This document shows positions 15,217 through 60,882 of a stretch of DNA of 64,000 nt, in pieces. The translations under genes were made by a program, and so were the position numbers. Position 1 is the first letter of the stretch. Every line of letters starts with the position of its first letter. Location: contig NZ_JAFGYF010000008.1 of NCBI RefSeq assembly GCF_016921195.1, positions 1 to 64,000 of the forward strand, in the 5' to 3' direction. Below the pieces are notes generated by a model, which worked only from the letters and a program-made list of their open reading frames with translations, was not told the origin of the DNA and did no database searches. This stretch comes from Cellulosimicrobium cellulans. Its GTDB lineage: Bacteria > Actinomycetota > Actinomycetes > Actinomycetales > Cellulomonadaceae.

Positions 15217-15422
15217 GCGCGGCAGAACCGCTTCGCCGAGCCAGAACCCCGGTCTGCCGAGGTAGAACCCTGGTCTGCCGAAGTAGAACCCTGGTCCCAA
15301 GTAGAACGCGGTCCCGGGAGGTAGAACCCTGGTCCCGCGAGGTAGAACCGTGGTCCCGCGAGGTAGAACCCTGGTCCCGCGAGGTAGAACGGTGTTCCGA
15401 TGAAGTAGAACCCCGGTCGGAG
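15217..15422 (+). repeat. array A: about ten 21-bp units, forward orientation
   Basis: About ten units of 18-22 bp, most of them 21 bp, with consensus core GGTAGAACCNTGGTC separated by GC-rich CGCGA-type linkers. The edge units are degenerate (ggcagaaccgcttcg at the left, GTAGAACCCCGGTCGG at the right). The four most regular units lie at 15318-15400. It pairs with the reversed array B 750 bp away; the DIP1984-family gene lies between. All frames are open across 21-bp units, so the array mimics a short coding repeat, but no initiation signal supports translation. Confidence 0.85.
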
Positions 15423-15655
15423 CAGTGCTCTGGTGCGACCGGTGGTGCTGTGACGAGAGGTCCCCGACCCCACCCTCACCCCTGCGAGCCAGCACACGGT
15501 GGTGCGCGATGCCGGGTGCGCGGTGCGGTCGTGCGCCGTGCTGGGCTGCGCCGTGCCAGGGAAACCCTGTGCGGACCTGCCCTCCGGTCACCTGGAGTGC
15601 CCTGCCCGGGCCGGGTCGTGCTCGCTCTCGCGGGGGCTACCGACTCCCGTCGTGC
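15423..15655. other. intergenic between array A and the DIP1984 gene
   Basis: No gene or clear signal is seen. It is GC-rich, with several short direct repeats of GTGC/TGCG type. Confidence 0.3.
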
Positions 15656-16111
15656 TCAGACCTCCGTCGTCCAGTTGGCCTGCTGGATCGCCGTGTCCAG
15701 CTCGCGCAGCCGGCGCGCGACGTCGTCGGCCTCGCGACGCAGCCCCGCGACGTCGACCGCCGAGACGAACCGCAGCTCCGTCCGGGTGAAACGGTCCTGC
15801 GTGGCGGTGCCGGCGTCGGCCAGGTCTCCCCGGACACGGTGCCGCAGCCGCAGCACGTCGCGGCGCGCGAGAGCCTGCGTCATCGTGAGTCCCGGTGCGA
15901 CCTCCGTCGTGAGGTTCACCTCGTTGATGCGGGCGATCAGCTGCTCCAGCTCGGCCGCGATGCGGTCGTGCTCGGCAAGCAGCGCCACCGGGTCCTCCGC
16001 GGGCTCCTCGCCCTCCTGGTGCCGCGCGTTCGCGACCGCGCGCGACGCCACCTGCGCGAGTCGCCGCTGCAGGTCCGCGCGCAGCGCCAACGCCTCCGCG
16101 AGCTTCGTCAT
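15656..16111 (-). CDS. DIP1984 family protein
   Basis: 151 residues, the usual family size. MTKLAEALALRADLQRRLAQ and LLAEHDRIAAELEQLIARIN form long helices, followed by TMTQALARRDVLRLRHRVRGDLADAG and a C-terminal helix LRREADDVARRLRELDTAIQ. It is almost all-helical, with coiled-coil character. DIP1984-family proteins are widespread in actinobacteria; their function is not established (some are labelled septicolysin-like). A GGGAGC ribosome site precedes the ATG. It sits between two oppositely oriented 21-bp repeat arrays, an arrangement unlike any other gene here. Confidence 0.8.
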   Translation of the reverse strand: MTKLAEALALRADLQRRLAQVASRAVANARHQEGEEPAEDPVALLAEHDRIAAELEQLIARINEVNLTTEVAPGLTMTQALARRDVLRLRHRVRGDLADAGTATQDRFTRTELRFVSAVDVAGLRREADDVARRLRELDTAIQQANWTTEV

Positions 16112-16175
16112 GCTCCCACCTCCGCGCCGACCCTACGCGCCGCCGTCGGGCTGGGCGTGGCGACGCCCCGGCGTC

Positions 16176-16279
16176 GGTGGAACCACGGTTCTACCTCGCG
16201 AGACCACGGTTCTACCTCGCGCGACCACGGTTCTATCTCGCGGGACCAGGGTTCTATCTCGCGAGGTAGAACCCTGGTC
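16176..16279. repeat. array B: four reversed 21-bp units plus one forward unit forming a 36-bp palindrome
   Basis: Four reverse-orientation units (core GACCACGGTTCTACCTC) run from 16176 to 16260. A single forward unit then completes a near-perfect palindrome at 16244-16279, with outer arms GACCAGGGTTCTA/TAGAACCCTGGTC and centre CTCGCGAG. The palindrome touches the stop codon of the YhgE gene (16280-16282), so its RNA hairpin could serve as that gene's terminator. Confidence 0.85.
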
Positions 16280-18394
16280 TCACAGGACGAGCTCCGGCTG
16301 GAGCTTCTTGATCGTCCAGACGCGCTGCTTGCGGGCCGCGAGGGTCGTCAGGGCGAGGGCGGCGGCCAGCACGACGACGAGCACCGTGACGTCGCGCGTC
16401 ACGGTCGCCGAGTTGCCGCCGTAGAGGAGCTGGCGCAGGCCCTCGACCGCGTACGTCATGGGCAGGAACCGGTGCAGGGAGCGCAGCGGCTCGGGGATCG
16501 TCTGCCACGGGAACGTCCCGCCCGCGGTGACGAGCTGGACGAGCATGAGCACGAGCCCGAGGAACTGGCCGGCCGCGCCGAGCCAGACGTTGAGCGCCTG
16601 GAGGATCGCGACGAACGTCGCGGAGACCAGCACGAGGAACAGCGCGGTCCCGACGCCGTGGACCGGGTCGATGTCGAGCGCGAACTTCGTCACGGTGAAC
16701 ATCGCCGCGACCTGCACGACGCCGATCGCGGCCGGGGTGAGCCAGCCGCCCAGGGCGGTGGCCAGGCCGGACCGCCCGGCGGCGAGGGCGCGCGACGACA
16801 GCGGGCGCACGAGCAGGAAGAGCACGTAGGCGCCGATCCACGTCGCGAGCGACAGGAAGAACGGCGCGAGCCCGCCGCCATAGGTCCCCGCGGACGACAG
16901 CGCCTCGTTCTGCACGGACACCGGGTTGCCGATGGTCTCGGCGGTGTCCTGCCGGGTCTGCTCGTCGAGGTCCGGCACCTGGCCCAGTCCTTCCGCGAGC
17001 CCGTCGCGGAGCTGCGTCACGCCGTCGACGAGCTCGCCCGAGCCGTCGCGCAGCTGCGACGTGCCGTCCGCGAGCGAGGTCGCGCCGTCGGACACCTGGC
17101 GCGTGCCGTCGGCGAGCTGCGAGACGCCGTCCACGAGCTGCGGGGTCGCGGCGGCGAGCTGTCCGGTGCCGTCGGCGAGGCGGTCCGCGCCGTCGGCGGC
17201 GCTCGCGATGCCGGAGGTCAGCTGCGGCGTGGCGGCCGCGAGCCGGGCCGCGCCGTCGGACACCTGGCGCGACCCGTCGGCGAGCTGGTCCAGCTTCCCG
17301 GACGCGGCGGTGACCTGGTCGACCGCGCCCTGGACCTGCTCGCGCTGCTGGTCGAGCACGGGCCCGACCTGCGCCCGCACCTGGTCCGCGGTCGCCCGGT
17401 CGATGACGCCGTCGGCGACGAGCTGGTCGAGCCGGGCGTCGACGTCACCGCGGATCGTGTCGAGCGTCGGGAGCACCTCGCCCGCGGCCGCGGCCGCCTG
17501 CTGCCCGTACTGCGCGACCTGCGCGTTCCCGTCCGCGACCTGCGCGGCACCGTCGGCGAGCTGCTGGGTCTGGTCGGGCAGCGACGACGTCGCACCGCGG
17601 AGCGTCCCGAGCCCGGAGGCCAGGGACTCGGCGCCGTCGTCGAGCCGCCCGACGGCGTCCGCGAGCGTCCCGGTGCTCGCGTCGAGACGCTCGGCGCCGT
17701 CGGCGGCCTGCCCCGCGCCGTCGGCGAGGGTGTGCGCGCCGTCGTCCGCGGTGACGAGGCCGTCGCGGACCTGCGTCGACCCGTCGAGGAGCTGGTCCGC
17801 GCCGTCCACGGCATCCGCGAGGTTGGTGTGGATGGACGCGAAGCCGCGCAGGAACGTGTCGGCGGCCTCGGTGCCCACCTGCTCGGCGATCGAGTCGCGC
17901 ACCTTCCCGACGATCTGGTCCGCGATCGTGCGCGCGAGGTAGTTGTTCGCGTCGTTGGTGATGAGCGTGAGGCTCGCCTGCTGGGGCTCGAACTCGCCCG
18001 CGGACGCAAGGTCGGCGGAGAACGTCGGCCCGATGACGAGCGCGGCGTCGTACCGCCCGGACCGCACGCCGTACTCGGCGTCGACCTGGCTCGTCTCCAC
18101 CCAGCCGAACCCGCCGTCGTCGAGGAGCTGGTCGGCGACGTCACGACCGAAGTGACGCGCCGTCGTCGTGCCTGTCCCCCCTTGGGCAGAGGCGTCCGTG
18201 GTCGTGGTGCCCTCGTCGAGCACCACGAGCGCGGCGGGGATCTGGTCGAGCTTGTCGTACGGGTCGTGGTTCGCGAACAGGTACAGCCCGGCGTAGAGCG
18301 TGGGGATGAGCGCCATCGCCAGGATGGCGAGACGCGGCAGCGTGCCCGCGGCGAGGCGGCGCAGCTCGGACAGCCCGAGGCGGATCGCGGTCAT
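16280..18394 (-). CDS. YhgE/Pip family membrane protein
   Basis: 704 residues. One N-terminal membrane segment (LPRLAILAMALIPTLYAGLYLF, about 19-40) precedes an extracytoplasmic region. That region contains a very long heptad-like repeat built on LADG(A/T) (for example DGAHTLADGAGQAADGAERL and later copies, about 220-490), predicted as a coiled coil. Five or so C-terminal membrane segments follow (about 515-690), as in ABC-2 permeases. YhgE/Pip proteins include phage-infection proteins and components of type VII-like or export systems; the role here is unknown. Its ATG overlaps the upstream gene by 4 nt. That gene encodes a degenerate ABC ATPase, and a TetR repressor is divergent. Confidence 0.9.
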   Translation of the reverse strand: MTAIRLGLSELRRLAAGTLPRLAILAMALIPTLYAGLYLFANHDPYDKLDQIPAALVVLDEGTTTTDASAQGGTGTTTARHFGRDVADQLLDDGGFGWVETSQVDAEYGVRSGRYDAALVIGPTFSADLASAGEFEPQQASLTLITNDANNYLARTIADQIVGKVRDSIAEQVGTEAADTFLRGFASIHTNLADAVDGADQLLDGSTQVRDGLVTADDGAHTLADGAGQAADGAERLDASTGTLADAVGRLDDGAESLASGLGTLRGATSSLPDQTQQLADGAAQVADGNAQVAQYGQQAAAAAGEVLPTLDTIRGDVDARLDQLVADGVIDRATADQVRAQVGPVLDQQREQVQGAVDQVTAASGKLDQLADGSRQVSDGAARLAAATPQLTSGIASAADGADRLADGTGQLAAATPQLVDGVSQLADGTRQVSDGATSLADGTSQLRDGSGELVDGVTQLRDGLAEGLGQVPDLDEQTRQDTAETIGNPVSVQNEALSSAGTYGGGLAPFFLSLATWIGAYVLFLLVRPLSSRALAAGRSGLATALGGWLTPAAIGVVQVAAMFTVTKFALDIDPVHGVGTALFLVLVSATFVAILQALNVWLGAAGQFLGLVLMLVQLVTAGGTFPWQTIPEPLRSLHRFLPMTYAVEGLRQLLYGGNSATVTRDVTVLVVVLAAALALTTLAARKQRVWTIKKLQPELVL

Positions 18395-19221
18395 CGTCCC
18401 TCCTCGGTGTCGTCCTGACGGTCGGCGGCGGCGTCGACCCCGGGGTCGTCGTCAGGATCGGTGCCGAACCCGGGGATGTCGCCGGGTTCGGCGGGAGGGG
18501 TGGCCGCAACCCCGGGTTCGGCGAGCGGGGTGGGGCGGGTACGCAGCGCGACGACGGGTGGCTCGTGGATCGACGAGCCGCGTGCGGGCGGGAGGTCGAC
18601 GCCGAGGTCGCGGGCCGACGCGCGCGTGCACTGCACCAGGACGCCGTAGCCCGCGCCGGCGAGCGACTGCGCGACCTCCCACCAGCCCGACGGCTCGCCG
18701 CCGTGGCGGTCGGGGAGCGTGAGCACGAGGAAGCGGACGTCGGGGTCCTCGGCCGCGAGCGCCGCGAGCAGGGCGGTGCGCACGACACCGGGGACCTGGT
18801 CGAGGCGCCGCGCGCGGTCGGCGGCGAGCGAGTGGTCGGCGAGCCAGCGCGTCACGTCGGAGGGCAGCGACCGTCGCCCGGCGAGCGCGAGGCCCTCGGC
18901 GACGACGTCGGACACGGTGAGCGCGTCGTCGGGCTCGCTGATGCCGGGCACGTCGACGACGGCGGTCACGTCGCGCAGGGTCGCGGCGGCGCCGCGGGAC
19001 GTGCGCCCGGCGCGGCGCGACGGCGTGCTCGCGGGCAGGAGCCGGACGTCGCCCGCGGACGGGTCGAACCGTCCCGTGGCGACGAGCGCGAGGGCGGTGT
19101 GCCCGTGCCCGGGCTCGCCCGCGACGAGCACGCACTCGCCCGTGGACCAGGCGAGGTCGATCGGCTCGAGCATCGGCTCGCGCCGCCCGTCGACGCGGAC
19201 GTCCGTCAGCGTGATCTGCAT
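18391..19221 (-). CDS. ABC ATPase-like protein with degenerate P-loop, partner of YhgE
   Basis: 276 residues from ATG 19221 (MQITLTDVRVDGRREPMLEP). The first strands match an ABC nucleotide-binding domain (PIDLAWSTGECVLVAGEPGHGHTALALVATG), but the Walker A lysine is replaced: GEPGHGHTA instead of GxxxxGK(S/T). No LSGGQ signature is seen, and the Walker B region (VRFLVLTLPDRHGGE) lacks the usual DE pair. The last 70 residues are Pro-rich. It overlaps the YhgE gene (ATGA) and therefore probably forms a complex with it, as a regulatory or structural subunit rather than an active ATPase. ATP hydrolysis is unlikely from sequence. Confidence 0.75.
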   Translation of the reverse strand: MQITLTDVRVDGRREPMLEPIDLAWSTGECVLVAGEPGHGHTALALVATGRFDPSAGDVRLLPASTPSRRAGRTSRGAAATLRDVTAVVDVPGISEPDDALTVSDVVAEGLALAGRRSLPSDVTRWLADHSLAADRARRLDQVPGVVRTALLAALAAEDPDVRFLVLTLPDRHGGEPSGWWEVAQSLAGAGYGVLVQCTRASARDLGVDLPPARGSSIHEPPVVALRTRPTPLAEPGVAATPPAEPGDIPGFGTDPDDDPGVDAAADRQDDTEEGR

Positions 19222-19265
19222 CCCGGCTCTTCCCTCTCGTGGGTCCCCGGCCTCCCGAGGACGCC

Positions 19266-19327: not shown

Positions 19328-19334
19328 GGATGCC

Positions 19335-20045: not shown

Positions 20046-20108
20046 CGTCGGGAGAGCGGCCGCCGCACACGTACACAGGGCGGCGCGGACGAGGTCGGGA
20101 GGCAGCGC

Positions 20109-35394: not shown

Positions 35395-36081
35395 GTGAGC
35401 GACTTCCCCACCCCTGACACGTTCTTCGCGCTGCGCCCCGGCCCCGCCGCGGGGACCGGCGCCGCCGACGGCCCGGACCTCCACCTGACCGTGCACGACC
35501 TGGGCGACCTCGTGCTCCCGAGCGGGCGGCTCGAGGCGTCCGACCCGTTCGCGCGGCTCGGCGACGGTCTCGTCGTGCGCGTCGAGCCCGGCCGCTACCC
35601 CGTGCGCGTCACGGTCGCCGACGTCTCGGACGAGCAGGACGGCTCGCACCTGCGCGAGGCGTACCTGAGCGTCGTGCTCGCCGAGGGCGAGGTCGCCGTC
35701 GTCGAGCCCGTCGTCCCCGAGGGCGCCGACGTCCCGCCCGAGGCCGGCACCGCCTACGGCGTGCCCGTCGACGCGGGGACGGTCGCGTTCGCGGACGCCG
35801 ACGCCGTCGCACGCCTCATGCCCGAGGGCGACTGGTACGAGGAGGTGTTCGACGACGGCACGGACACGAGCTGGTTCTCGCTCATGGACTCCGCCGAGCA
35901 CCTGTTCGAGGGTGTCGCGAACATCGAGCTCCCCGGCGCACCGGACGGCGAGAACGTCGTGCTCGCCCACTCGGGGTGGGGCGACGGCTTCTACCCGCTC
36001 GTGCGGACCGTCGCGGCCGACGGCACCGTTCTCGGCCTGCACCTCGACCTCCTCGTCGCCCTCCCGGACGACGAGGACTAG
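35395..36081 (+). CDS. DUF4241 family protein
   Basis: 228 residues from GTG 35395. LHLTVHDLGDLVLPSGRLEASDPF, then VRVEPGRYPVRVTVADVS, REAYLSVVLAEGEV, GTVAFADADAV and a C-terminal HSGWGDGFYPLVRTVAADG are the DUF4241 pattern. The family is uncharacterised; some members accompany contact-dependent toxins as immunity proteins, but no toxin is seen here. TACGCT at 35383-35388 ends 6 nt before the start, so the mRNA is probably leaderless. A 21-bp repeat array begins 34 bp after the stop. Confidence 0.82.
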   Translation: MSDFPTPDTFFALRPGPAAGTGAADGPDLHLTVHDLGDLVLPSGRLEASDPFARLGDGLVVRVEPGRYPVRVTVADVSDEQDGSHLREAYLSVVLAEGEVAVVEPVVPEGADVPPEAGTAYGVPVDAGTVAFADADAVARLMPEGDWYEEVFDDGTDTSWFSLMDSAEHLFEGVANIELPGAPDGENVVLAHSGWGDGFYPLVRTVAADGTVLGLHLDLLVALPDDED

Positions 36082-36114: not shown

Positions 36115-36256
36115 GGGTAGAACCCGGTCACGCGAGATAGAACCCCGGTCACCCGAGACAGAACCGTGGTCACGCGAGATAGAACCGTGGTCACGCGAGA
36201 TAGAACCGTGGTCACGCGAGATAAGACCGTGGTTTCGTGAGGTAGAACCGTGGTCA
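36115..36256 (+). repeat. array C: about seven 21-bp units, forward orientation
   Basis: Regular 21-bp units with core GATAGAACCGTGGTCACGCG from 36115 to 36256. The first two carry CCCGG or CCCCGG in place of CCGTGG, the sixth has an extra A (GATAAGACCGTGG), and the last reverts to GAGGTAGAACCGTGG. It pairs with the reversed array D (36570-36674). Confidence 0.9.
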
Positions 36257-36436
36257 TGCCCGACGACGGTGGGTCGCCTGCCGAGGCGAGGTCACGACGT
36301 CCCACCCGCGCCACCGCACGGTGACGGACCTGAGCACGCCGTCACGGACCGCCGACAACCCGGAACCGTCCACGACTCCGTACTCAGCGCTCGGCGAGCC
36401 TGCCCGGGCGAGCACCGACCAGGGTGAGACGACGCA
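36257..36436. other. spacer between array C and the hairpin element
   Basis: 180 bp with no supported gene. A 22-codon reading frame from ATG 36256 has no ribosome site and starts inside the repeat. Confidence 0.3.
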
Positions 36437-36540
36437 GGGCGGGGTGGGTGGTGGTGCCGCGTCGTGGTCGGGCCTGGCGGGAGCGACGCGAGGAACGAGC
36501 GGCGCGGATGGTAGACGCGGCACCACCACCCACCCCGCCC
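36437..36540. repeat. long-stem hairpin element, copy 2
   Basis: Perfect 27-bp arms at 36437-36463 and 36514-36540 (GGGCGGGGTGGG at the outer left, GCCGCGTC at the inner left) enclose 50 nt. The loop holds GGGCCTGGCGGGAGC and GAGGAACGAGCGGCG, shared with the copy at 60650-60740. The homology continues about 30 nt beyond the right arm (GCCGTCGAGCAC) into array D. Confidence 0.85.
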
Positions 36541-36569
36541 ACCCAGAGCAACCACGCGCCGTCGAGCAC

Positions 36570-36674
36570 GAGAACCACGGTTCTACCTCGCGCAACCACG
36601 GTTCTACCTCGCGCAACCACGGTTCTACCTCACGCGACCACGGTTCTACCTCGCGCGACCACGGTTCTACCTCG
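36570..36674 (-). repeat. array D: five reversed 21-bp units
   Basis: Five reverse-orientation units (ACCACGGTTCTACCTCGCGC type), nearly identical to one another, ending 7 bp from the stop codon of the eboF-like gene at 36681. Read on the minus strand they match the CCGTGG subtype of array C. Confidence 0.9.
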
Positions 36675-36680: not shown

Positions 36681-38099
36681 TCAGACGCGGGCGCCGAGGC
36701 CCTGGAGCTCGAGCACGAGGCCCTTGATCGCCGCCGCCGGGATCTGCCCGCTCCCGCTCTCCACGACGCCCGCGACGGACGCCGGCACCTCCGCGTCGGA
36801 GCACAGCACGAGCGGGGTGTCGGCCGAGGAGTCGGGCAGCCGGCCGTGCGAGCCCTTCACGTACGACGCGTCGAGCGGGACGGTGCTCATGGCGTACCGC
36901 AGCCCGACCTTCTTCTTCACGAGGTTGAGGCCCGCCTTCGCCTTCGCCAGCCTGTCCGCGGGGTCGAAGAACAGCTCGGCGGGGTCGTAGCCGGGCTTGC
37001 GGTGGATGTCGACGCCGCGCGCGTACTCGGGCGCGCGCGCGTCGTCGAGCCAGAAGTAGTACGTGAACCACGCGCCCGGCTCCGCGACGACGACGAGGTC
37101 GCCGGAGCGCTCGTGGTCGAGCCCGTACCGGGCCTGCGCCTCGCGGTCGAGGACCTCGTCGACCCCCGGCACGCCGCGCAGCAGGTCGGTGACGCGCCGC
37201 TGGAGCGCGGGGTCGTGCTGGTCGCCCAGGTAGACGTGCGCGACCTGGTGGTCCGCGACGGCGAACGCGCGCGACGTCCACGGGTCGAGCTGCTCCTTGC
37301 CGTCCTGCACGTAGACCTCGAGCAGGCCCTCGCGGCGCAGGATGCGGTTGAGGTGCACGGGCCGGTCGGCGTCCGCGATGCCGTACTCGGAGACCACGAG
37401 GACGGTCACACCCTGGTTCGCGGCGTCGTCGAGCAGCGGCGCGAGGGTCGCGTCGAGCTCCGCCGCGGCGGCGTCGGCCTGCGGGGACGTGGGCCCGAAC
37501 CGCTGGAGGTCGTAGTCGAGGTGCGGGACGTACGCCATGGTGAGGTCCGGCGCGTGCGTGCGCAGCACGTGCCGCGTCGCGTCGACGATCCACCGCGAGG
37601 ACGAGATGTCCGCCGTCGGGCCCCAGTACGTGAACAGGGGGAACTCGCCGAACCGTCCGACGAGGTCGTCGTGCAGCGCCGGGGGGCGCACGTACGCGTC
37701 CGGGGACTTGCGGCCGTCCGCGTGGTAGATCGGGCGCGGCGTGACGGTGACGTCGGTCGTCATGCCCATGGCGTACCACCAGCAGACGTTCGCCGACGAG
37801 TACTCGCGGCGCGCCCGGCGCGCGGCCTCCCACAGCTTCTCGCCCTCGACGAGCCGGGCGTGCTGCCGCCACAGGTACACGTCGCCGAGCTCGCGGAAGT
37901 ACCAGCCGTTCCCGACGATCCCGTGCTGGGACGGGCTGAGCCCGGTCGTCATCGTGGCCTGGACGCTGCACGTCACCGCGGGCAGGACCGTCGCGAGCTC
38001 GGACTGCCAGCCGCTCGCGGCGAGCTGGCGCAGGCGCGGCATGTGCGCGAGCGCGGTCGAGGTGAGCCCGACGACGTCGAGCAGCAGCACGGGCTTCAT
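36681..38099 (-). CDS. eboF: EboF-like type I phosphodiesterase/nucleotide pyrophosphatase
   Basis: 472 residues from ATG 38099. MKPVLLLDVVGLTSTALAHM holds the first metal-binding aspartate; AVTCSVQATMTTGLSPSQHG carries the nucleophile threonine of type I phosphodiesterases; DLTMAYVPHLDYDLQRFGP and VSEYGIADADRPVHLN carry the remaining metal ligands. It is thus an alkaline-phosphatase-fold hydrolase of phosphate mono- or diesters. It is the last gene of a seven-gene ebo-type operon and overlaps eboE by 4 nt. No signal peptide is present, so it acts in the cytoplasm. Substrate unknown. Confidence 0.85.
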   Translation of the reverse strand: MKPVLLLDVVGLTSTALAHMPRLRQLAASGWQSELATVLPAVTCSVQATMTTGLSPSQHGIVGNGWYFRELGDVYLWRQHARLVEGEKLWEAARRARREYSSANVCWWYAMGMTTDVTVTPRPIYHADGRKSPDAYVRPPALHDDLVGRFGEFPLFTYWGPTADISSSRWIVDATRHVLRTHAPDLTMAYVPHLDYDLQRFGPTSPQADAAAAELDATLAPLLDDAANQGVTVLVVSEYGIADADRPVHLNRILRREGLLEVYVQDGKEQLDPWTSRAFAVADHQVAHVYLGDQHDPALQRRVTDLLRGVPGVDEVLDREAQARYGLDHERSGDLVVVAEPGAWFTYYFWLDDARAPEYARGVDIHRKPGYDPAELFFDPADRLAKAKAGLNLVKKKVGLRYAMSTVPLDASYVKGSHGRLPDSSADTPLVLCSDAEVPASVAGVVESGSGQIPAAAIKGLVLELQGLGARV

Positions 38100-50528: not shown

Positions 50529-53153
50529 TCAGCACGCGCCGCCGTCGGCCCACGGACCCCACGCCGAGGCGCCGGGGGTGTCGTTCTGGGTCCAGTAGCG
50601 CGCCGTCCACACGTGACCGCCGTGGCTCACGACCGCGCCGCCGGTGTAGACCGTGCCCGCGACCCAGGCCGCGGCGGCGCACTCGCCCGTGCCGGTGCCG
50701 GGGCCGCCCGGACCCCCGCCGCTCCCGGAGCCCGGGAGGTCGACGACGGTGACGCCGCGCGGGTGGTCGTACGTCGTGGCGTAGTCCACGCCGTCGACCG
50801 TGACGATCACGTTGGAGAACTGGGCGGCCGGCATCGACCACTTGAGCTGGTTCGTGATCGAGCCGCCCGCCGGGATGCCCCCCGTCGGGACCGTGAACTG
50901 CACGGTGTGGAAGTCGCCGTCGAGGCCGCCGACGTTGTCCCCCGTGTGGCCCTTCGCGGTGACCGTGGTCTTGAAGCCGCTCCAGTCGCTCATCTCGCCC
51001 GGGTCGGTCGTGCCGTACTGGAACGAGATCGTCGCGCCCGCCGGGATGTCCTTCGCGCCGTTGTTGGCGAAGACGACCTTGGGCGAGATCGGGTAGTTGT
51101 TGTCGCCGAGCGCGAACTCCGTGTACCGGATGTCGACGTCGAGCGCCTGCGTCGGCATCGTCCGGTCGGCGTTCGCCTTCGACGCGCCGTACGGCGTCGT
51201 GGCCGAGAGCTTGCTGTGCATGAGGTCGACGAGCGTGCTGCCGATCTCGTACTGGCCCTTCGCCTGGTCGTAGCCGAAGTCGCCCGCGAGCTCCCAGATC
51301 ATCAGGCCGCCGAGGCCGGTGTTCGCGACGTAGTCCGCCTTGGCCGCGATCGCCTCGGTCGAGTCACCGGAGAGGAACGTCTTCGTCTGCGCGTTCCACC
51401 ACCACTCGTTCTTCGTGACCGGGTCGAAGTGGCGCTCGTAGGTGCCCTGGATCGTGTCCGTGACGCCGTACGCGGAGACGTAGTCGCCCGTCACGCCCTT
51501 CTCGAGGTTGAGCACGTGCCACATCGGGTTGACGCCGGCCGGGACCGCGTTGCCCTGCGGGTCGCTGTCGTACCAGAGGTTGTCGATGCCCTCCGCGCCG
51601 TAGCCGCACTTGTTGTTCGTGCCCGCCGGGCAGAGGAACCCGGCCGGCGCCTTCGCGGTGCCGCCCATGCCGTACGTGCCGCCCTGGACGCCCTGGAAGC
51701 CGCGCGTGTAGAACGGCACGCCCAGGTTGATGCGGCCGGCCTGCATGGCGCCGCGGAAGTAGTGCGAGGCCCAGTCGCCGTTGAGGTAGCCGATGCCCTT
51801 GTACGCGCTGTACACGCCGCCGGCCGCGAGCTCGGGGTCCTTGCCGTCGTCGAACAGGGCGCCGTTGCCGCCCACGTACTCGTTCCAGGCGCCGTGCAGG
51901 TCGTACGTCATCATGTTCACGTAGTCCGTGTACTGCGTGACCTGGTAGACCTCCATGCCGCGCAGCAGCCAGCCTGACGACGGCGTCGCGGTCGTCAGCA
52001 TGTAGTACTCGCCGTCCTGCGCGCCCGCCGCGTCGAGCTTCTCGCGCAGGGTCTTCATGAGGTTCACGTAGCCCTGGAAGAGCTGCCCGCGGCGCTTGTC
52101 GGAGATCTGGAAGTCGTCCGGGTTGCCAGCCTGGTTGTTGGACGTCGGGTACTCGTAGTCGATGTCGATGCCGTCGAACCCGTACTGGCGGACGAAGTCG
52201 ACGACCGAGTCCGCGAAGGTGTCGATGCGCGCCTGCGACTCCGTCATCGTGTAGAAGCCGCCGGACGCGACGCGCTTCCCGCTCGCGTCGAAGTAGCCGC
52301 CCGTCTCGGCCCAGCCGCCCACGGCCGGGATGACCTTGACGCCCGGGTGGGCCTTCTTGTACTTCGCCAGCAGGTTGAAGTGGCCCGTGTAGTCGAGCGC
52401 CGGGTCCATCTCCGCGCCCGCGACGCCCGGCCACGTCATGTCCGTCGCCGCGTTGCCGGCCGCGCCCGCGTTCACGGAGACCTTGTCGTTGCCGTCGATA
52501 TGCGCGAACGCGTAGTTGATGTGGGAGAGCTTGTCCCAGGGGATGTCGCTCGCGAGGTAACGCGGCTGGCCGTTCGTGCCGGTCCGCCAGCTCGAGAAGT
52601 AGCCGATGACGCGGCGGTCGAGCCCGTTCGGCAGCTTCTCCCGACCGTCCTCGTCGTACACGTCGCAGTAGGGCGTCCTGACGCCCGGCGTCTGCGCCAT
52701 GCCGTCAGGACGGCACTTCTCGTCCGGGTTCGCGGCGGGGTCGGTCGTCGGCTCCGTCGTGGGGTCGGTGGTCGGGTCCGTCGTCGGGTCGGTCGTCGGG
52801 TCCGTGGTCGGGTCCGTCGTCGGCTCCTCGGCCGGGGTGTCGCCGCACGCGCCGAGCGACTCCCAGGGGCCGTACGCCTCCGCGCCCGGGACGTTGTTCT
52901 GCGTCCACCACTTCGCCCGGTAGTTCTGGCCGCCGTACGAGACGGTCGCGCCGCCCACGTAGGCGGGGGTCGCGGACCAGGGGTCCGCGCACGCCGTGGC
53001 CGTGGCGGCGGCGAGGGGGGTCGTGGCCTGCGCGGCCGCGGCACCGGCGAGGCCGGTGGCCAGCACGGCGAGCGTCGTGAGGGCCGCGACGACCTGTGGC
53101 CGGCGTCCGGGAGCGCGGGGGGCGCGCGCCCGAGGGGTCAGGGACAACCGCAT
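50529..53153 (-). CDS. secreted GH18 chitinase with N- and C-terminal CBM5/12 modules
   Basis: 874 residues from ATG 53153. Signal peptide RPQVVAALTTLAVLATGLAG, ending near AAAAQA. A CBM5/12 module (about 55-100: PAYVGGATVSYGGQNYRAKW, WTQNNVPGAEAYGPWESLGAC) comes next, then a (TTDP)n linker. The GH18 barrel (about 180-640) has the catalytic FDGIDIDYEYP (E as proton donor, about 330); its long insertion and GMEVYQVTQYTDYVNMMTYD are of Serratia ChiA type. A beta-sandwich (about 680-800) and a second CBM5/12 (YTGGAVVSHGGHVWTARYWT) close the protein. It hydrolyses chitin outside the cell. It follows the second chitinase gene on the same strand, 288 bp away. Confidence 0.95.
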   Translation of the reverse strand: MRLSLTPRARAPRAPGRRPQVVAALTTLAVLATGLAGAAAAQATTPLAAATATACADPWSATPAYVGGATVSYGGQNYRAKWWTQNNVPGAEAYGPWESLGACGDTPAEEPTTDPTTDPTTDPTTDPTTDPTTEPTTDPAANPDEKCRPDGMAQTPGVRTPYCDVYDEDGREKLPNGLDRRVIGYFSSWRTGTNGQPRYLASDIPWDKLSHINYAFAHIDGNDKVSVNAGAAGNAATDMTWPGVAGAEMDPALDYTGHFNLLAKYKKAHPGVKVIPAVGGWAETGGYFDASGKRVASGGFYTMTESQARIDTFADSVVDFVRQYGFDGIDIDYEYPTSNNQAGNPDDFQISDKRRGQLFQGYVNLMKTLREKLDAAGAQDGEYYMLTTATPSSGWLLRGMEVYQVTQYTDYVNMMTYDLHGAWNEYVGGNGALFDDGKDPELAAGGVYSAYKGIGYLNGDWASHYFRGAMQAGRINLGVPFYTRGFQGVQGGTYGMGGTAKAPAGFLCPAGTNNKCGYGAEGIDNLWYDSDPQGNAVPAGVNPMWHVLNLEKGVTGDYVSAYGVTDTIQGTYERHFDPVTKNEWWWNAQTKTFLSGDSTEAIAAKADYVANTGLGGLMIWELAGDFGYDQAKGQYEIGSTLVDLMHSKLSATTPYGASKANADRTMPTQALDVDIRYTEFALGDNNYPISPKVVFANNGAKDIPAGATISFQYGTTDPGEMSDWSGFKTTVTAKGHTGDNVGGLDGDFHTVQFTVPTGGIPAGGSITNQLKWSMPAAQFSNVIVTVDGVDYATTYDHPRGVTVVDLPGSGSGGGPGGPGTGTGECAAAAWVAGTVYTGGAVVSHGGHVWTARYWTQNDTPGASAWGPWADGGAC

Positions 53154-53441
53154 GGGGTACCTCGATCTGCTGGGTTGGTGCGCACGACGCCGGACGGCGT
53201 CGCGTCGGGCACGGTCGCCGGGGGGGAGGGCGACCGACGGGTGAAGGGTTGCTGAGGGGTGCCGAGCGGGACCCGTCACGACGGCGGTCGACGACGGAGG
53301 CGTTCGGTGACGCGGCGAGGGGAGGGTGCACGGGCGGGTGCACGGGACTCGTCACCGCACCCGCCGTCGACCACGTCGTGGACGGGGCCCCGCTCGGCGG
53401 CGCCGGTCGCTCGTGGCGACCGGCGCCGTCAGGGGTGGGCG

Positions 53442-55331
53442 TCAGCAGGCGCCCAGCGACTCCCAGGGGCCGTACTGCTCCGCGCCCGGGACGTTGTTCT
53501 GCGTCCACCACTTCGCGCGGTAGGTCTGGCCCTGGTAGGAGACCGTCGCGCCGCCGGTGTAGACCGCGCTCGACGACCACGCGGGCGCCGTGCACGTGCC
53601 CGGGTCGGTCGGGTCCGTGGGGTCGGTCGGGTCCGTGGGGTCGGTCGGGTCCGTCGCGCCGCACGTGCCGGTCGCCTCCCACGGGCCGCCCGCGCTCGGG
53701 CGGTCACCCTGGGTCCACCACTTCGCGCGGTAGTTCTTCCCCTCGAACGACACCGTCGCACCGCCCGTGTACACCGCGCTCGACGACCACGGGGCCAGGC
53801 ACTCCGTCGGGTCGGTCGGGTCGGTCGGGTCCGTGGGATCGGTCGGGTCCGTGGGATCGGTCGGGTCGGTCGAGCCGTCCGTGCCGTCGACCGGGCCGGT
53901 CGGGAGCGCACGGACCTTGTCCGTGAAGCCCGCGAGCAGCGTGCCGTCGTGGTTGCCGGAGAGGTCCCACCACATGCCGCCGCCGAGGTTCAGTCGGTCG
54001 ATGTACTCCGCCTTGGCGGCGACGGACCGCGCGTTGTCGTAGCCCCACCACTGGTCGCCGTCGTAGCGCCAGGCCGAGACCGTGGCCGGGTCGTAGTAGT
54101 CCTGGCCGCGCGTGCGCAGCTTGTCGTAGTCCTCGTTGCCCGCCTCCCAGGTGCCGGGGGCGGCTCCCGTCGCCGCCGACCACGGGGCCGAGGACGTGAC
54201 GCCCTTCCAGCCGCGGCCGTACATGGCCATGCCGAGGCCGAGCTGGCTCGGGTCGACGCCGCCGCGCAGGTACGCCTGGACGGCCTTGTCGGCGCTGAAC
54301 TGCCGGTTCGCCGGCCGGGGGTCGGCGGGGTCGTCGTACAGGTTGCCCTGGGGGCCGGCGAGCGCGGGGTCCCACGCGCCGTGCAGGTCGTAGCCCTGGA
54401 CGTTGCCGTAGTCGAGGTACTCGAAGATCGCCGGGTCGTTCCAGCCGCCGGCGGCGATGTCGTCGGGGTTCGCGGGGAGGAACGCCGAGAGCAGGTAGTG
54501 CTTGCCCGTCTGCGCGCCGTACGCGTCGAGCTGCTTGCGGAACTCGGCGAGCAAGAGCTTGAAGTTCGCGCGGTCGTTCACCGTGTCGACGTGGTTGCCC
54601 ACCTCGCCGTTGTTCGAGCCGGGCCACTCCCAGTCGATGTCGATCCCGTCGAACACCCCGGCGGCCGCCCCGGGCCCGCCGCGGCCGTCGATCACGGGCA
54701 GGTTGCCCTTGATGTAGAGGTCGATGCACGACGACACGAACTTCTCGCGCGACGCCTGCGTCGCCGCAGCCTTCGAGAAGTTCTTGGACCAGGTCCAGCC
54801 GCCGATGGAGATGAGGGCGCGCAGGTGGGGGTTCTTCGCCTTGAGCTGCTTGAGCTGGTTGAACGAGCCGGCGAGCGGCTGGTCCCACGTGTCGGCCACG
54901 CCGGTCACGGAGCTCGCCGCGGTGTAGCCCATGCCGAAGTCCGCCCACGCGTCACCGGCGCCGTCGGAGCCGTTCGGCCCGGCGCCCTGCGCCTTGTTCG
55001 CGATGAAGCACGTGAGGTTCTGGTGGTGGATGTTGCCGAACGAGTAGTTGATGTGCGTGAGGTCCTGCGCCGCGCCGGAGTCCTGGACCTTCTTGAGCTG
55101 GAAGTCGCGGCCGTACACGCCCCACTGCGTGAAGTAGCCGACGTTGCGGTAGCCGTTCACGTCGCTGTCGCCCGGGTGGGAGACCGCGGCCGGGGCGACC
55201 TCGGCGGCCTGGGCCGGCGCGACTCCCGCGAGGAGCCCGCCGACGAGCGCCGCTGCGGTCGTGAGCGCCGCGACGCGCGTGCCGCGACGGCGCCCCTCGC
55301 GGGGTCGTCTGGTGAAGAGGGACACGTCCAT
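53442..55331 (-). CDS. secreted GH18 chitinase with two C-terminal CBM5/12 modules
   Basis: 629 residues from ATG 55331 behind AGGACCC. Signal peptide AALTTAAALVGGLLAGVAPA, ending AQA. The GH18 barrel (about 55-460) carries VFDGIDIDWEWPGSNNG with the DxxDxDxE catalytic motif (E about 231), ALISIGGWTWSKNFSKAAA (SxGG) and GMWWDLSGNHDGTLLAGFTD at the last strand. A (DPT)n linker and two CBM5/12 modules (SSAVYTGGATVSFEGKNYRA and SSAVYTGGATVSYQGQTYRA) follow, joined by a second DPT linker. It complements the other chitinase. Its promoter region carries a palindrome, and a large LuxR regulator gene lies just upstream. Confidence 0.95.
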   Translation of the reverse strand: MDVSLFTRRPREGRRRGTRVAALTTAAALVGGLLAGVAPAQAAEVAPAAVSHPGDSDVNGYRNVGYFTQWGVYGRDFQLKKVQDSGAAQDLTHINYSFGNIHHQNLTCFIANKAQGAGPNGSDGAGDAWADFGMGYTAASSVTGVADTWDQPLAGSFNQLKQLKAKNPHLRALISIGGWTWSKNFSKAAATQASREKFVSSCIDLYIKGNLPVIDGRGGPGAAAGVFDGIDIDWEWPGSNNGEVGNHVDTVNDRANFKLLLAEFRKQLDAYGAQTGKHYLLSAFLPANPDDIAAGGWNDPAIFEYLDYGNVQGYDLHGAWDPALAGPQGNLYDDPADPRPANRQFSADKAVQAYLRGGVDPSQLGLGMAMYGRGWKGVTSSAPWSAATGAAPGTWEAGNEDYDKLRTRGQDYYDPATVSAWRYDGDQWWGYDNARSVAAKAEYIDRLNLGGGMWWDLSGNHDGTLLAGFTDKVRALPTGPVDGTDGSTDPTDPTDPTDPTDPTDPTDPTECLAPWSSSAVYTGGATVSFEGKNYRAKWWTQGDRPSAGGPWEATGTCGATDPTDPTDPTDPTDPTDPGTCTAPAWSSSAVYTGGATVSYQGQTYRAKWWTQNNVPGAEQYGPWESLGAC

Positions 55332-55429
55332 GGGTCCTGCCTCGTTGCTCGTGCGGTGGGCCGCGTCGCCGTCCTCCGGAGTCGCCGTCGCCCTCGGGTC
55401 CCCTCGAACGTAATGACGGGGGCACGCGA

Positions 55430-58500: not shown

Positions 58501-58674
58501 CGCCCCCATGCCGTGCTCGGCCGTCCACACGAGGCCGCCCTTGCCCTCGCTCACGGCCGCGAGCGCGCGGTCGACCTCCTGCGCGCGGGAGGACAGCCGC
58601 TCCAGCCGTCGCGCCGACCGCGCGTCCGCGCGCCGGTGCGGCTCCGGAACCAGGTAGTCGTGCCGTTCTGACAT
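55585..58674 (-). CDS. large LuxR (LAL-type) regulator with degenerate P-loop
   Basis: 1029 residues from ATG 58674. The N-terminal ATPase-like domain (about 20-300) has GLVWTAEHGMGASATLELVC where the Walker A should be, but GAS replaces GK(S/T). The Walker B VVLVADDLHLQDDL is intact. A long helical repeat region (about 380-850, TPR-like: RAEAFAIAGVAALRSGHVQD) follows. The C-terminal LuxR HTH is canonical (LTERELDVALLVVQGASNRE, AADQLYLSVRTVEVHLGRVF). It probably senses a sugar or other signal and activates transcription. It lies 253 bp upstream of two chitinase genes on the same strand. An inverted repeat TGTTAAC-N8-GTAAACA (58723-58744) lies in its own promoter region. Confidence 0.85.
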   Translation of the reverse strand: MSERHDYLVPEPHRRADARSARRLERLSSRAQEVDRALAAVSEGKGGLVWTAEHGMGASATLELVCEAVASHTFARPTLILRCRPPAGAPAPGSAVVSLVSQVSQLAGGVVPERLTRVLEPVDPGFGYLPEVAAVALAELLVESFDGATVVLVADDLHLQDDLSRSVLASLVAQRHAPVVLLGTATAGALDPSSGPFELRAVPPLAPADALHLLLVERRLAVAPHVAARLAQLLGGNAAALTQTAALLTPEQLSGGSILPDPLPAVPAVRSLFADRLAALTEGERHALLVAAVAVVDRTELLLSATGLAMDEVLDGPLAEHLALVGGRFAFVDPRMRSLVHADARLAERTAAHVALAEAHRRAGEEDVAVWHSALATLVGDPTLVPGLLRIARRHLDRGDVVWAHEVAREAASQAATEHRAEAFAIAGVAALRSGHVQDAADWLRKASRSGDDALRARTLGPLVAALTLAEGQVPDDVLSPYLRGGQPDGLAPDAVAGVVSGVLDAARLHAERGDGVSTSQLLDTATFLASWCDDDETAARLALARSWAAVFGVGERAAVPDVDLGPDHEASVQVGRALALAADDRLEDAAQTLASVVASLAPVRDGGRWFDGPDTALTPLAEAHVRLAQTLVHLWRGTLTRAADELAEAAFRLPVGLPFAGLGVAAARRLDMMTRGVVGPVATALEETCASPTSRPVRLGLLVDRAMGAAFAHHVTQAATLLELAAERERPDSARMLPLPGLDDVEAWVVAGRHDAAQRALARRKVDAKELPPSLRSATLVRAEVSLATPEDLAAPLERATRVNRTTASPYEHARTDLCAARALVRAGELQRAHGLFLSAIELFDDAGADAWTTIARDEHADVVRLLGGPVADDATPGAPASAVRLGAAPAIGLGTASGGAPPGSWAAAARAAGLHAPLPGALGGARPGAEPAVPTRPAPPDACRLAVRESDVSDEALAELRGRWSDELTERELDVALLVVQGASNREAADQLYLSVRTVEVHLGRVFRKLGVRSRVELTVLAHRVGR

Positions 58675-58801
58675 GTCGGGACCCTCCGTCCGGGGGCTTC
58701 GTCGCCCGTCGACCGGATGAAATGTTAACAACCCTCCGTAAACAAGGGATCACCTCATCGTTTCCCGCCCGTCACACGACCGCCACCTGGGACGACGGCG
58801 C

Positions 58802-58830
58802 TTGCCCGACTCGGACGAGAGGGCTAGCCT
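58802..58830 (+). promoter_or_regulatory. promoter of the corA locus
   Basis: TTGCCC (58802-58807), 17 bp, TAGCCT (58825-58830). Transcription would begin near 58837, giving a leader of about 337 nt before the small membrane protein gene at 59174. Confidence 0.6.
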
Positions 58831-58914
58831 GACCTCGATCCCCGTCGTGGCCACGGGTCCCGTGCGCCCCGACCCGGGTGCGGCGCTCCCCCGGCGCCGC
58901 CGCCACGAGAGCGA

Positions 58915-58969
58915 GGTGAGCCCCATGCCGGACGGCAGCAGTCATAGAGCCGTGCACTGCGCGCTCACC
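58915..58969 (+). ncRNA. possible three-stem element in the corA leader
   Basis: GGTGAGC (58915-58921) pairs with GCTCACC (58963-58969). Inside, GCC-GGAC-GGC and GCAGT/ACTGC can form two further helices, giving a three-way junction. AGGTGAG and GGCAGCAG recall pieces of magnesium and other riboswitch cores, but the order does not match one, so I leave the class open. The element contains the start of the mini-ORF at 58925. Confidence 0.35.
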
Positions 58970-58996
58970 CCCCGTGGCCCGCAGCCCGTCGCCTGA
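58925..58996 (+). CDS. possible 23-codon leader peptide
   Basis: ATG 58925 with GAGGTGAG at good distance, 23 codons, stop TGA. The product begins MPDGSSHRAVHCALTPRG and continues PQPVA: a short, basic/Pro-rich peptide with no membrane segment. It lies in the long leader of the corA locus, overlapping the possible RNA element. Translation of such a leader peptide can control downstream expression. Evidence is only the ribosome site and location, so this is a tentative call. Confidence 0.35.
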   Translation: MPDGSSHRAVHCALTPRGPQPVA

Positions 58997-59173
58997 GTCC
59001 CAGCACCGCGAGGACTCCCGCGACCGGCCGTCGTCCCGTGCGGGGAGGTCGCCAGTGCGCACCGCGCGCCGTCGTGCGCGCCGCCGGACCACCCCCGCTG
59101 ACGCACCCGCCGTCGCCGCCCACCCCGTGGCGCCCGTCGGTGCTCGTCGGCACGCCGAGAAGGACGACCACCC

Positions 59174-59365
59174 ATGACCCAGCGCTCGCCTGCCACCGAG
59201 ACCCGGACCCGTCCCGCACGCCTGCCCCTGCGGGACGCGCGCGACGACCGACGCCGTGCCCGCCGACCGAACCTGGAACGCCAGTCGATCTCCTTCACCG
59301 TCGGCCTGTACGTGTTCATCTGCGTCGCGCTGCTGCTCGCGCACGTCACCGCAGGGGGTGTGTGA
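59174..59365 (+). CDS. small single-pass membrane protein coupled to corA
   Basis: 63 residues from ATG 59174 (GAGAAGGAC upstream). The basic N-terminus (ARLPLRDARDDRRRARRPNL) is followed by one membrane helix (SFTVGLYVFICVALLLAHVT). Its stop codon shares a base with the corA ATG (TGATG at 59363-59367), so translation is coupled and the two proteins are made together. Small membrane proteins often modulate transporters; a role as a CorA accessory subunit is inference. No known family is recognised. Confidence 0.65.
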   Translation: MTQRSPATETRTRPARLPLRDARDDRRRARRPNLERQSISFTVGLYVFICVALLLAHVTAGGV

Positions 59366-60396
59366 TGACGACGACGCTGCCCGAGCCCCGCAGCCTCGCG
59401 CCGGCACCCGGCGCGGACCGCGCGCTCCCTGCGCCCGCGCGCGGCGGGCTGGACCTGCACGCCCGCGCGCACGGCACCGGCGCTCCCCGGTTCGACCCCC
59501 GCGTCCTGCGCTCGCGCTGGGTCCAGGTCGGTGTGGGCGACCCCGACGCGACGGCCCGCGCCGCCGAGCACGGCGTGGACTTCGCCGCTGCCGGCGGCCG
59601 GGTCTGGGAGACGGACGTCCACGTCTACCTCCCCGTGACCGCGACGCGGCGCGACGGCGACCGGGTCGTCTCCGAGCGGATCGTGCTCGCCCTCTCCCCC
59701 GACGTCGTCGTGACGGCCCAGCCCCAGCGGCACTACCCCGTCTTCGACAAGGCGATCGCCCGCATGCGCCGCACGCCGTGGCTCATCGGCTCGTCCTACG
59801 GCGTCGCGTACGCCCTGCTGTACGCGCTCAACGAGGCGGCGGACCGCGCCGTGTCGTACGCGAGCGACCTGCTCGAGGACATGTCCGACGAGATCGACGA
59901 GGCGACGCGCGGAGTCGACTCCCGGGGCCGGGAGATCGGCGTGAGCGACATGCAGGACACCATCACCCGGATGAACCGTGCGGAGGAGATCGTCTCGCGC
60001 GCCCAGGAGTCCCAGCTCTCGCTCGCCCGCGCGGCGCGGCACCTGCGCAGCGAGATCGCGGACTCCGACCCCGTGCTCGCCGGCCTCGTCGAGACCCTCG
60101 TCGCGGACGTCGACGGCGTGAAGCAGCACGCGAGCTTCGAGCACGACAAGGTGCGCTACCTCCAGCAGGCGATCATGACGTCGCTCGACGTCAAGCAGGC
60201 CCAGATCGTCAAGGTCTTCACGATCATCACGGCCGTGTTCCTGCCGCCGACGCTCATCGCGTCGTTCTACGGCATGAACTTCACGCACATGCCCGAGCTC
60301 GACCGCCCCTACGGCTTCACGCTCACCGTCCTGCTCACCCTGGTGGCAGCCGTGATCCCGCTCGCCTACATCAAGCGCCGCGGCTGGCTCCGCTGA
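59365..60396 (+). CDS. corA: CorA-type magnesium/divalent cation channel
   Basis: 343 residues from ATG 59365. The cytoplasmic N-terminal domain (about 40-270) ends in the long stalk helix (DNAEEIVSRAQ-type region: MNRAEEIVSRAQESQLSLAR). Two C-terminal membrane helices carry the signature GMN in ASFYGMNFTHMPELDRPYG (about 310), then TVLLTLVAAVIPLAYIKRRG. Members form pentameric Mg2+ channels in the membrane. It is translationally coupled to a 63-residue membrane protein and lies behind a 337-nt leader, which suggests control of expression at the RNA level. A 21-bp repeat array follows 33 bp after its stop. Confidence 0.93.
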   Translation: MTTTLPEPRSLAPAPGADRALPAPARGGLDLHARAHGTGAPRFDPRVLRSRWVQVGVGDPDATARAAEHGVDFAAAGGRVWETDVHVYLPVTATRRDGDRVVSERIVLALSPDVVVTAQPQRHYPVFDKAIARMRRTPWLIGSSYGVAYALLYALNEAADRAVSYASDLLEDMSDEIDEATRGVDSRGREIGVSDMQDTITRMNRAEEIVSRAQESQLSLARAARHLRSEIADSDPVLAGLVETLVADVDGVKQHASFEHDKVRYLQQAIMTSLDVKQAQIVKVFTIITAVFLPPTLIASFYGMNFTHMPELDRPYGFTLTVLLTLVAAVIPLAYIKRRGWLR

Positions 60397-60428
60397 CCCC
60401 TCGCGACCTGCGGGAGGGAACCGGCCGG

Positions 60429-60531
60429 CCGAGACGGTACCCCGCTCCACCGAGACAGAACCCCGGTCCGCCGAGGTAGAACCGTGGTTGCGCGAGGTAG
60501 AACTCTGGTCGACCGAAGGCGAACCCTGGCC
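60429..60531 (+). repeat. array E1: about five forward 21-bp units, partly degenerate
   Basis: Units from GAGACGGTACCCCG at 60429 through GAGGTAGAACCGTGGTTGCG and GAGGTAGAACTCTGGTC to GAAGGCGAACCCTGGCC at 60531. The segment 60468-60510 is complementary to 60778-60820 at 40 of 43 positions. Confidence 0.85.
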
Positions 60532-60649
60532 GCGGCAGCGGCGGCTCCCGCCGGTGCGCGACGGCGGGTTGGTCGCCGTGGGTGACCCGACCACCGGGTC
60601 CTTCCTCGCCCAGGGCGATTGCCCGCGGGTCGGTGCGCTCGCCCCGGGA
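60532..60649. other. spacer between array E1 and the hairpin element
   Basis: 118 bp without a supported gene or clear homology to the spacer at 36257-36436. Confidence 0.3.
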
Positions 60650-60740
60650 GGGGTGGGTGGTGGTGCCGCGTCGTGGCGGGCCTGGCGGGAGCCGCGAGGA
60701 ACGAGCGGCGGATGGTCGATGCGGCACCACCACCCACCCC
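60650..60740. repeat. long-stem hairpin element, copy 3
   Basis: Arms 60650-60672 and 60718-60740 (23 bp, one G-T mismatch) match the stem of the copy at 36437-36540. The 45-nt loop (60673-60717) contains GGGCCTGGCGGGAGCCGCGA and GAACGAGCGGCGGATGG. This loop is the closest relative of the element inside the MocR gene. Confidence 0.85.
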
Positions 60741-60776
60741 GACCACCCAGGGCAACCAGAACGCCGTCGAGCACAA

Positions 60777-60882
60777 GAACCAGAGTTCTACCTCGAGCAA
60801 CCACGGTGCTACCTCGGCGGACCAGCCGTTCTATCTCGCGCGACCGCGGTTCTACCTCGGTAGACCAGAGTTCTACCTCGGC
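60777..60882 (-). repeat. array E2: five reversed 21-bp units
   Basis: Reverse units from GAACCAGAGTTCTACCTCG (60777) to CCAGAGTTCTACCTCGGCG (60882), ending 11 bp from the dtd stop codon. Central variants (CCAGAG, CCACGG, CCAGCC, CCGCGG, CCAGAG) differ from unit to unit; the first two mirror units of array E1 in reverse order. Confidence 0.85.

Follow-up and report, generated by a model that had tools for sequence, protein, structure and literature searches.

The opposed pairs of 21-bp tandem arrays in Cellulosimicrobium cellulans can, with moderate confidence, be regarded as dispersed 3′-end cassettes that are predicted to work as bidirectional terminators or insulators of transcription. According to this reading, most of the 21-bp units would lie behind a stop codon and point the way the gene is transcribed, and an array would meet its mirror image where two genes converge. 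Long hairpins would then stop transcription, or insulate it, on both sides. The stem of a compact pair would be formed by its two opposed arrays; in spaced pairs a palindromic module would provide it, and the arrays would be independent 3′-end modules, possibly bound by a protein. The number of tandem units probably changes by slippage, and the module together with its adjoining array would be copied between loci. We infer that the hairpins act in RNA, be it as terminators, as 3′-end protectors or as barriers against antisense read-through. Directly supported by the data are the place of the arrays, their inward geometry, the co-variation of the arms of compact pairs, the palindrome of the module, the variable presence of arrays and the substitute hairpins at some array-free junctions.

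Arrays in the window

A preliminary description of the window, which is the whole 64-kb stretch of DNA analysed, had placed six arrays in three opposed pairs, and all six were located there (Table 1). The array starts proposed at that time lie slightly before those of our weight-matrix scan and represent degenerate units. The core with up to three mismatches was matched 33 times in the window; 100 shuffled sequences gave 3.4 matches (sd 1.8, maximum 9). Two of the three pairs had been described as lying between convergent genes. This holds for pairs 2 and 3 and not for pair 1, which is surrounded by three minus-strand genes and has one gene between its arms.

Table 1. Arrays, module copies and the gene between the arms of pair 1, with positions in the window.
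Feature	Position	Strand	Weight-matrix units	Remarks
Pair 1, forward 21-bp array	15217..15421	+	15237-15421	8 weight-matrix units; degenerate units before
Pair 1, DUF6847 gene between the arms	15656..16111	-		Pfam PF20935, E 4e-52
Pair 1, reverse array, 4 units	16178..16261	-	16178-16261	in sense orientation behind the ABC-transporter gene 16280-18394(-), past its stop codon
Pair 1, extra forward unit	16262..16282	+	16262-16282	one unit, head-to-head with the reverse array; overlaps the stop of gene 16280-18394
Pair 2, forward array	36115..36258	+	36133-36258	33 bp past the stop of gene 35395-36081(+)
Pair 2, 172-bp module	36410..36585	+		palindrome with 27-bp stem; conserved spacer extending into the reverse array
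Pair 2, conserved loop of the palindrome	36470..36511	+		GGGCCTGGCGGGAG-stem-GAGGAACGAG-stem-GGATGG
Pair 2, reverse array, 5 units	36570..36674	-	36570-36674	array end 7 bp away from gene 36681-38099(-), on the side of its stop codon
Pair 3, forward array	60429..60534	+	60451-60534	32 bp past the stop of the CorA-like gene 59365-60396(+)
Pair 3, 172-bp module	60632..60790	+		palindrome with 24-bp stem
Pair 3, conserved loop of the palindrome	60678..60715	+
Pair 3, reverse array, 4 matched units	60775..60880	-	60775-60880	array end 13 bp away from the stop codon of 60893-61333(-), a D-Tyr-tRNA deacylase gene

The exceptional, non-convergent situation of pair 1 is explained by the DUF6847 gene, which stands between the arms only in the C. 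cellulans of the window when this is compared with 15 relatives. In nine of these 15, an opposed pair lies directly between the ABC-transporter and FAD-oxidase genes, and six of the nine have a match to the palindrome. Of the remaining relatives, five have no array and one is cut by a contig end after the forward array. The extra forward unit of pair 1 forms a hairpin with the neighbouring unit (-31.0 kcal/mol, z -6.2). Tandem repeats of short period (units of 9 to 36 bp) were also noted at 52738-53879 of the window, in the called genes 50529-53066(-) and 53442-55331(-).

Distribution of the 21-bp unit

The unit has the consensus CGAGGTAGAACC[G/C]TGGTCGCG and a period of 21 bp. Allowing two mismatches, the core occurs 233 times on the plus and 257 times on the minus strand of the whole genome, i.e. 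about 490 units, compared to 5 and 7 matches for the reversed control pattern. Hundreds of units throughout the genome go beyond the preliminary description, as do the module shared by pairs 2 and 3 and the 20-bp period observed in one other genus. When neighbouring units on the same strand lie less than 80 bp apart, 771 of 843 are spaced by 21 bp (loci not deduplicated). The unit was detected at least once in 16 and ten or more times in 13 of the 17 Cellulosimicrobium genomes among 221 genomes of the GTDB family; of the 204 other family genomes, one has 16 matches and 21 have one or two. The array family is dispersed and mostly restricted to the genus. Two records (L013, L023) under the name Sphaerisporangium cinnabarinum ATCC 31213 also carry the array, and this genome probably belongs to Cellulosimicrobium.

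Exact-pattern scans gave no two-unit match in viral contigs, and there was no match in phage records. In a plasmid collection, one of 72,556 records matched, a distant one from Deinococcus, and tandem repeats inflate such scores.

Orientation and position at gene ends

The following counts rely on a home-made gene caller and on two sets of data: an 843-kb sample of long contiguous sequence (the contig of the window, C22, with the window included, contig C20 and 400 kb of C17) and a pooled set, which mixes orthologous loci of related species and includes 92 loci chosen for containing the tandem unit. Clusters near contig edges were set aside; for the gene context of the pooled pairs, the same was done with 21 loci that lack a flanking gene on one or both sides and with pairs that overlap a called gene. 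After deduplication, 85 of the pooled clusters point inward, 2 outward, 3 are mixed and 48 have one orientation, the latter comprising 33 with two or more units and 15 single units. For the 843-kb sample alone, the corresponding numbers are 16, 0, 1 and 13. Despite the one-orientation clusters, the excess of inward over outward geometry does not agree with arrays that occur singly and at random, and together with the genome-wide number of units it supports the earlier proposal of a real family with consistent inward geometry. Only 7 of 147 unit midpoints in the 843 kb lie inside called genes, which speaks against units that form part of a conserved protein gene.

The gap between opposed arrays is bimodal. 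We found 57 unique pairs with a gap of at most 20 bp, here called compact, 75 with at least 60 bp, here called spaced, and three in between. The compact pairs share a common centre, most commonly with two bases between GGTC and GACC. Pairs 2 (36 kb) and 3 (60 kb) of the window belong to the spaced class.

Two or more units were found at 13 of 122 convergent junctions of the 843-kb sample (odds ratio by Fisher's test 7.5, P 7e-6) and at 10 of the 642 remaining ones, which divide into 5 of 278 in plus-plus, 4 of 240 in minus-minus and 1 of 124 in divergent orientation. With the window excluded, the preference is the same (11/114 versus 8/599, odds ratio 7.9, P 3e-5). Among the pooled inward pairs, 44 of 84 stand between convergent genes (background 395/2202) and 4 of 84 between divergent genes (background 406/2202). 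The outer side of an array faces the 3′ end of a gene in 145 of 199 cases. The gene-end reading is limited by the fact that just 13 of the 122 convergent junctions carry an array and that 54 of the 199 outer sides face a 5′ end. Single arrays are antisense to the adjoining gene end in 8 of 31 cases. At 149 gene ends with an array in the same direction within 150 bp, the TAG of the first unit is itself the stop codon in 29 cases; thus the arrays often touch the reading frame. TAG stops were counted in 42 of these 149 genes versus 301 of 2224 among all genes.

Hairpins of compact and spaced pairs

Within a genome, compact pairs show co-variation of their innermost arms: over the central nine positions of 51 loci, their identity is 0.869 versus 0.805 after swaps between loci of the same genome, a value that none of 5000 permutations reached. 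For the arms of spaced pairs no co-variation was observed (72 loci, 0.790 versus 0.794, 3453 of 5000 permutations as good), and a single hairpin formed by the arms of every pair was therefore rejected for the spaced class. Both tests cover genomes with more than one locus and thereby leave aside 6 of the 57 compact and 3 of the 75 spaced pairs. When compact loci are averaged over all units, the signal is not significant (237 of 2000 permutations, in a smaller first set), so that pairing of compact pairs is marked in the centre only. Hairpin-templated repair could be an alternative source of this co-variation.

A compact pair folds as one long hairpin of -65.5 kcal/mol (z -11.7). A single unit does not fold better than shuffled sequences (z 0.46, 130 of 200 shuffles as good), nor do two arrays of the window folded alone (z -0.91 and -1.04); one array of contig C20 is moderately better than its shuffles (z -2.73). 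With regard to canonical intrinsic terminators, the GC-rich hairpin near the stop codon is present in the compact pairs and in the module (z -5.0 to -8.2). However, in compact pairs TTT within 10 nt was found neither at the outer flanks (0 of 114) nor at the positions past the innermost reverse unit (0 of 57), and since the U-tract is absent, compact pairs are not canonical intrinsic terminators.

Hairpins are also frequent at gene ends that have no array. Among array-free junctions of 60 to 330 nt, a stem of at least 12 was detected at 64% of 77 convergent and 7% of 42 divergent junctions, at 27% of 26 in plus-plus and at 12% of 26 in minus-minus orientation, with the non-convergent junctions taken from the first four genomes only. 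Three array-bearing plus-plus junctions lack such a stem. The idea that other gene-end hairpins form large dispersed families was rejected, as 69 non-array hairpins gave clusters of only 4, 2 and 2 members. By eye, several of the non-array hairpins share with the array units an outer stem resembling CGCCGA/TCGGCG, for example those at C22 132540, C20 76275 and C17 287347 of genome G000.

The palindromic module and its conserved loop

A 172-bp module lies between the arms of pairs 2 and 3, and a strong palindrome was detected inside most spaced pairs. The genome contains at least 40 places that match the module. Its assembly has 46 contig ends, of which at least 17 lie within this palindromic module; the module therefore likely breaks short-read assembly. 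Of the 70 copies that score above 50 bits and are not at a contig edge, 64 run on to a reverse array, and the distance to it is almost constant. In 52 copies there is in addition a forward array upstream, whose distance differs from copy to copy. Six copies lack both. Palindrome and loop are almost invariant in 61 long copies from nine genome groups, and the module, itself nearly unchanged, appears to be copied between loci with its adjoining array. Both strands of the two window copies fold better than shuffles, as given above by their z values, and in both copies the GA-rich strand is the stronger one. For 27 of 31 solo copies, the gene end that adjoins the 3′ side belongs to the opposite strand; for array-bearing copies among co-directional genes no strand bias was found (15 and 14), the count being made after removal of 17 edge and 9 in-gene copies.

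Cores related to the module were found in 39 of 221 genomes and 9 of 25 genera of the family, with the best four candidates per genome scored. A common arrangement was found in 53 loops of 22 genomes and six genera, GGGYCTGGCGGGAG - short stem - GAGG(N)ACGAG - short stem - GGATGG. Outer stems of at least 15 bp carry 51 of the 53 loops, and the two others were left out for their short stems. The 31 distinct inner stems pair to 97.4% with their own partner compared to 55.9% with swapped partners; that they differ in sequence and nevertheless pair with their own partner is strong evidence for a conserved structure. In all six genera the conserved loop is carried on rebuilt stems. It may represent either a structured RNA or an element residing in hairpin loops. 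At the loci L313-L331, from several other genera of the family, it is found on long locus-specific stems independent of arrays, and this loop is a candidate for a new structured RNA or hairpin element. The Rfam models gave no match in the window at their gathering scores; around pair 2, with E values up to 5, there was nothing credible, only five below-threshold microRNA models at the palindrome. A loop motif that is carried on rebuilt stems in six genera and is not in Rfam is worth study by itself.

Comparison of orthologous junctions

Whether an orthologous junction carries an array differs between species. Scoring by hand, we found arrays in 4 of 12 genomes at junction J1, 2 of 15 at J6 (a single unit in G006 not scored), 4 of 13 at J38 (long inserts in G004, G013 and G015 not scored) and 11 of 16 at locus 1. 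Parsimony on a five-gene tree gave 4, 2, 2 and 4 changes for J1, J6, J38 and locus 1, respectively, from these hand-scored patterns. At J38, which lies at 79.3 kb of the contig of the window, 11 sequences fall in the range of 60-330 nt; ten of them reach a stem score of 15 or more, three being arrays and seven unrelated hairpins. At the junction of pair 2 (J25), the intergenic stretch measures 107 bp in three relatives, where another hairpin occupies it, and 73 bp in one relative, which has no hairpin there; in six it extends over 945-2402 bp. At J1, two further conserved hairpins stand next to the arrays, and an apparent array remnant was noted in one relative. At the co-directional junction J0 arrays occur without a strong stem. 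By eye, no target duplication was recognised at J25 and J38, where the whole intergenic stretches differ, or at J1.

Related arrays in other genera

In G026, which represents the one other genus with the unit, compact inward pairs were found with a period of 20 bp, mostly at gene ends; 2 of its 12 listed loci lie between divergent genes. Of two further genomes that have the module core, G193 contains in 200 kb one opposed pair of a different 21-bp unit, beside the module between convergent genes, and G177 contains in 200 kb three loci with different 20-bp units. This small sample hints at opposed arrays with replaceable units as a habit of the whole family. The distant plasmid match is Deinococcus radiophilus pRadio2 (NZ_CP086382.1, 90703-90807, L333), where a run of 21-bp units of the CGCGAGATAGAACTGAGGTAA type, resembling the Cellulosimicrobium unit, lies between parB and repA and is adjoined by an opposed degenerate array. 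This plasmid array probably consists of iterons, and the resemblance may be a coincidence or reflect common origin.

Discussion

That no named family has such an architecture was already presumed, and for the arrays we likewise found no catalogued family in Rfam and no account of a 21-bp repeat of this kind in the titles and abstract openings of open-licence literature, with limited search terms. The RepRanger paper (PMC12306157) has in its main text no word beginning with Cellulo. The nearest elements in behaviour are REP/BIME elements. REPs are palindromes of 20-40 bp with an unpaired GTAG or CGTC tag; the GTAG- and CGTC-tagged families are dispersed, high-copy, mostly intergenic and in some cases species-specific, they lie downstream of genes, between convergent or co-directional genes and often as opposed pairs, and roles in termination and mRNA stabilisation have been proposed (PMC3733652). 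The opposed, mostly extragenic units downstream of genes (85 versus 2 clusters, 145/199 outer sides, 7/147 midpoints) correspond to this description. However, the 21-bp unit forms no hairpin, even though it contains GTAG, it is arranged in tandem arrays of one direction, most spaced pairs hold a separate 172-bp module, and the genome has no Y1 transposase. The arrays work like REP/BIME elements and are not members of them, since the unit is not palindromic and a RAYT transposase was not found.

Other comparisons concern hairpins at gene ends. Work on intrinsic terminators and hairpin clusters without U-tract places hairpins just past stop codons and reports that poly-U trails are not general and that hairpins lacking them are common at bacterial RNA ends (PMC8355165). 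This partly fits our observations; in Cellulosimicrobium, however, a dispersed repeat family, present in tandem copies at many loci, supplies the stem. Similarly, a partial fit is seen with bacterial stem-loop sequences, for which the available part of the source describes a preference for convergent over divergent intergenic spaces and for the 50 bp after stops, and no opposed tandem arrays (PMC1590033). The few strong termination sites reported for M. tuberculosis caution against over-confidence (PMC10937400).

Several alternatives to 3′-end cassettes have to be weighed. The pairs might be non-autonomous mobile elements without function, MITE- or REPIN-like, with expanded ends and retained where insertion is harmless, an idea raised from the beginning. 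Part of it stood: presence varies at orthologous junctions (J1, J6, J38 and locus 1), the module is nearly invariant in its 61 copies, abundance is restricted to the genus, and by eye many spaced elements carry the array and the flank GTGCTCGACGGCGTGTGG a second time, inverted, at their opposite end, which recalls terminal inverted repeats, yet the outer ends are variable arrays. On the other side, a target duplication was not recognised, the products of the genes between arrays, read by eye, look ordinary and include no transposase, and PF01797 (Y1/RAYT), the only family searched genome-wide, had no match in this genome, with the control found in 5 of 14 genomes. The viral, phage and plasmid searches yielded only the Deinococcus match. 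Moreover, random insertion predicts neither the co-variation of compact arms nor first units that supply stop codons. We therefore consider mobile elements without function unlikely. An explanation by replication iterons or plasmid remnants could draw on the pRadio2 array, with its similar unit and its place between parB and repA. It is extremely improbable, given that the chromosome holds hundreds of copies, which in the stretches inspected lie at ordinary gene ends, and that there is a single match among the plasmid records with scores inflated by tandem repeats; the genome-wide distribution makes a plasmid origin unlikely.

A protein that binds the unit is the main rival to 3′-end cassettes, with spaced pairs keeping tandem units without pairing. 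Every unit would then be contacted on one face of the helix, and the arrays would serve as polar roadblocks for the polymerase or as sites that structure the nucleoid. The units are directional, two of three arrays folded alone are unstructured as RNA, and the strict 21-bp period would correspond to two helical turns. This phasing, proposed at the outset, gains weak support from the period and loses by the 20 bp used in G026. In addition, an array of binding sites requires neither inward pairing nor co-varying arms, and we judge protein sites as the whole explanation to be quite unlikely. DNA uptake sequences, as in Neisseria and Haemophilus, would account for hundreds of copies and for inverted pairs at gene ends that double as terminators. 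Uptake sequences are mostly single and frequent inside genes. The tandem arrangement and the near absence of the units from genes disagree with this, and on position the explanation was rejected as very unlikely.

RNA polymerase I terminators contain tandem Sal boxes. As a possible functional analogy, these eukaryotic terminators combine directional sites for a roadblock protein with an RNA hairpin at the gene end; there is no homology, and no roadblock protein is known for the Cellulosimicrobium arrays (PMC12366685). A speculative and rather improbable extension of the 3′-end cassettes would be two-part terminators of a type not described in bacteria, with directional tandem boxes, a genus-specific blocking protein bound to them and, beside the boxes, a family-wide hairpin that releases the polymerase. 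The boxes would be swapped for new 20-21-bp sequences in each genus, and the loop would remain constant on a stem rebuilt per locus.

Gene ending in high-GC actinobacteria is unsettled, and here a dispersed repeat sits after stop codons at dozens of junctions. Since species with and without the array, and with unrelated hairpins, are available for one and the same junction, a role in termination can be tested by 3′-end mapping in congeneric strains. Finally, in several Cellulosimicrobium genomes (L016, L021, L080, L284 and L257) the arrays are adjoined by a gene that we take to encode an AbiEi-like protein, and a similar gene was noted in the genus of G026.
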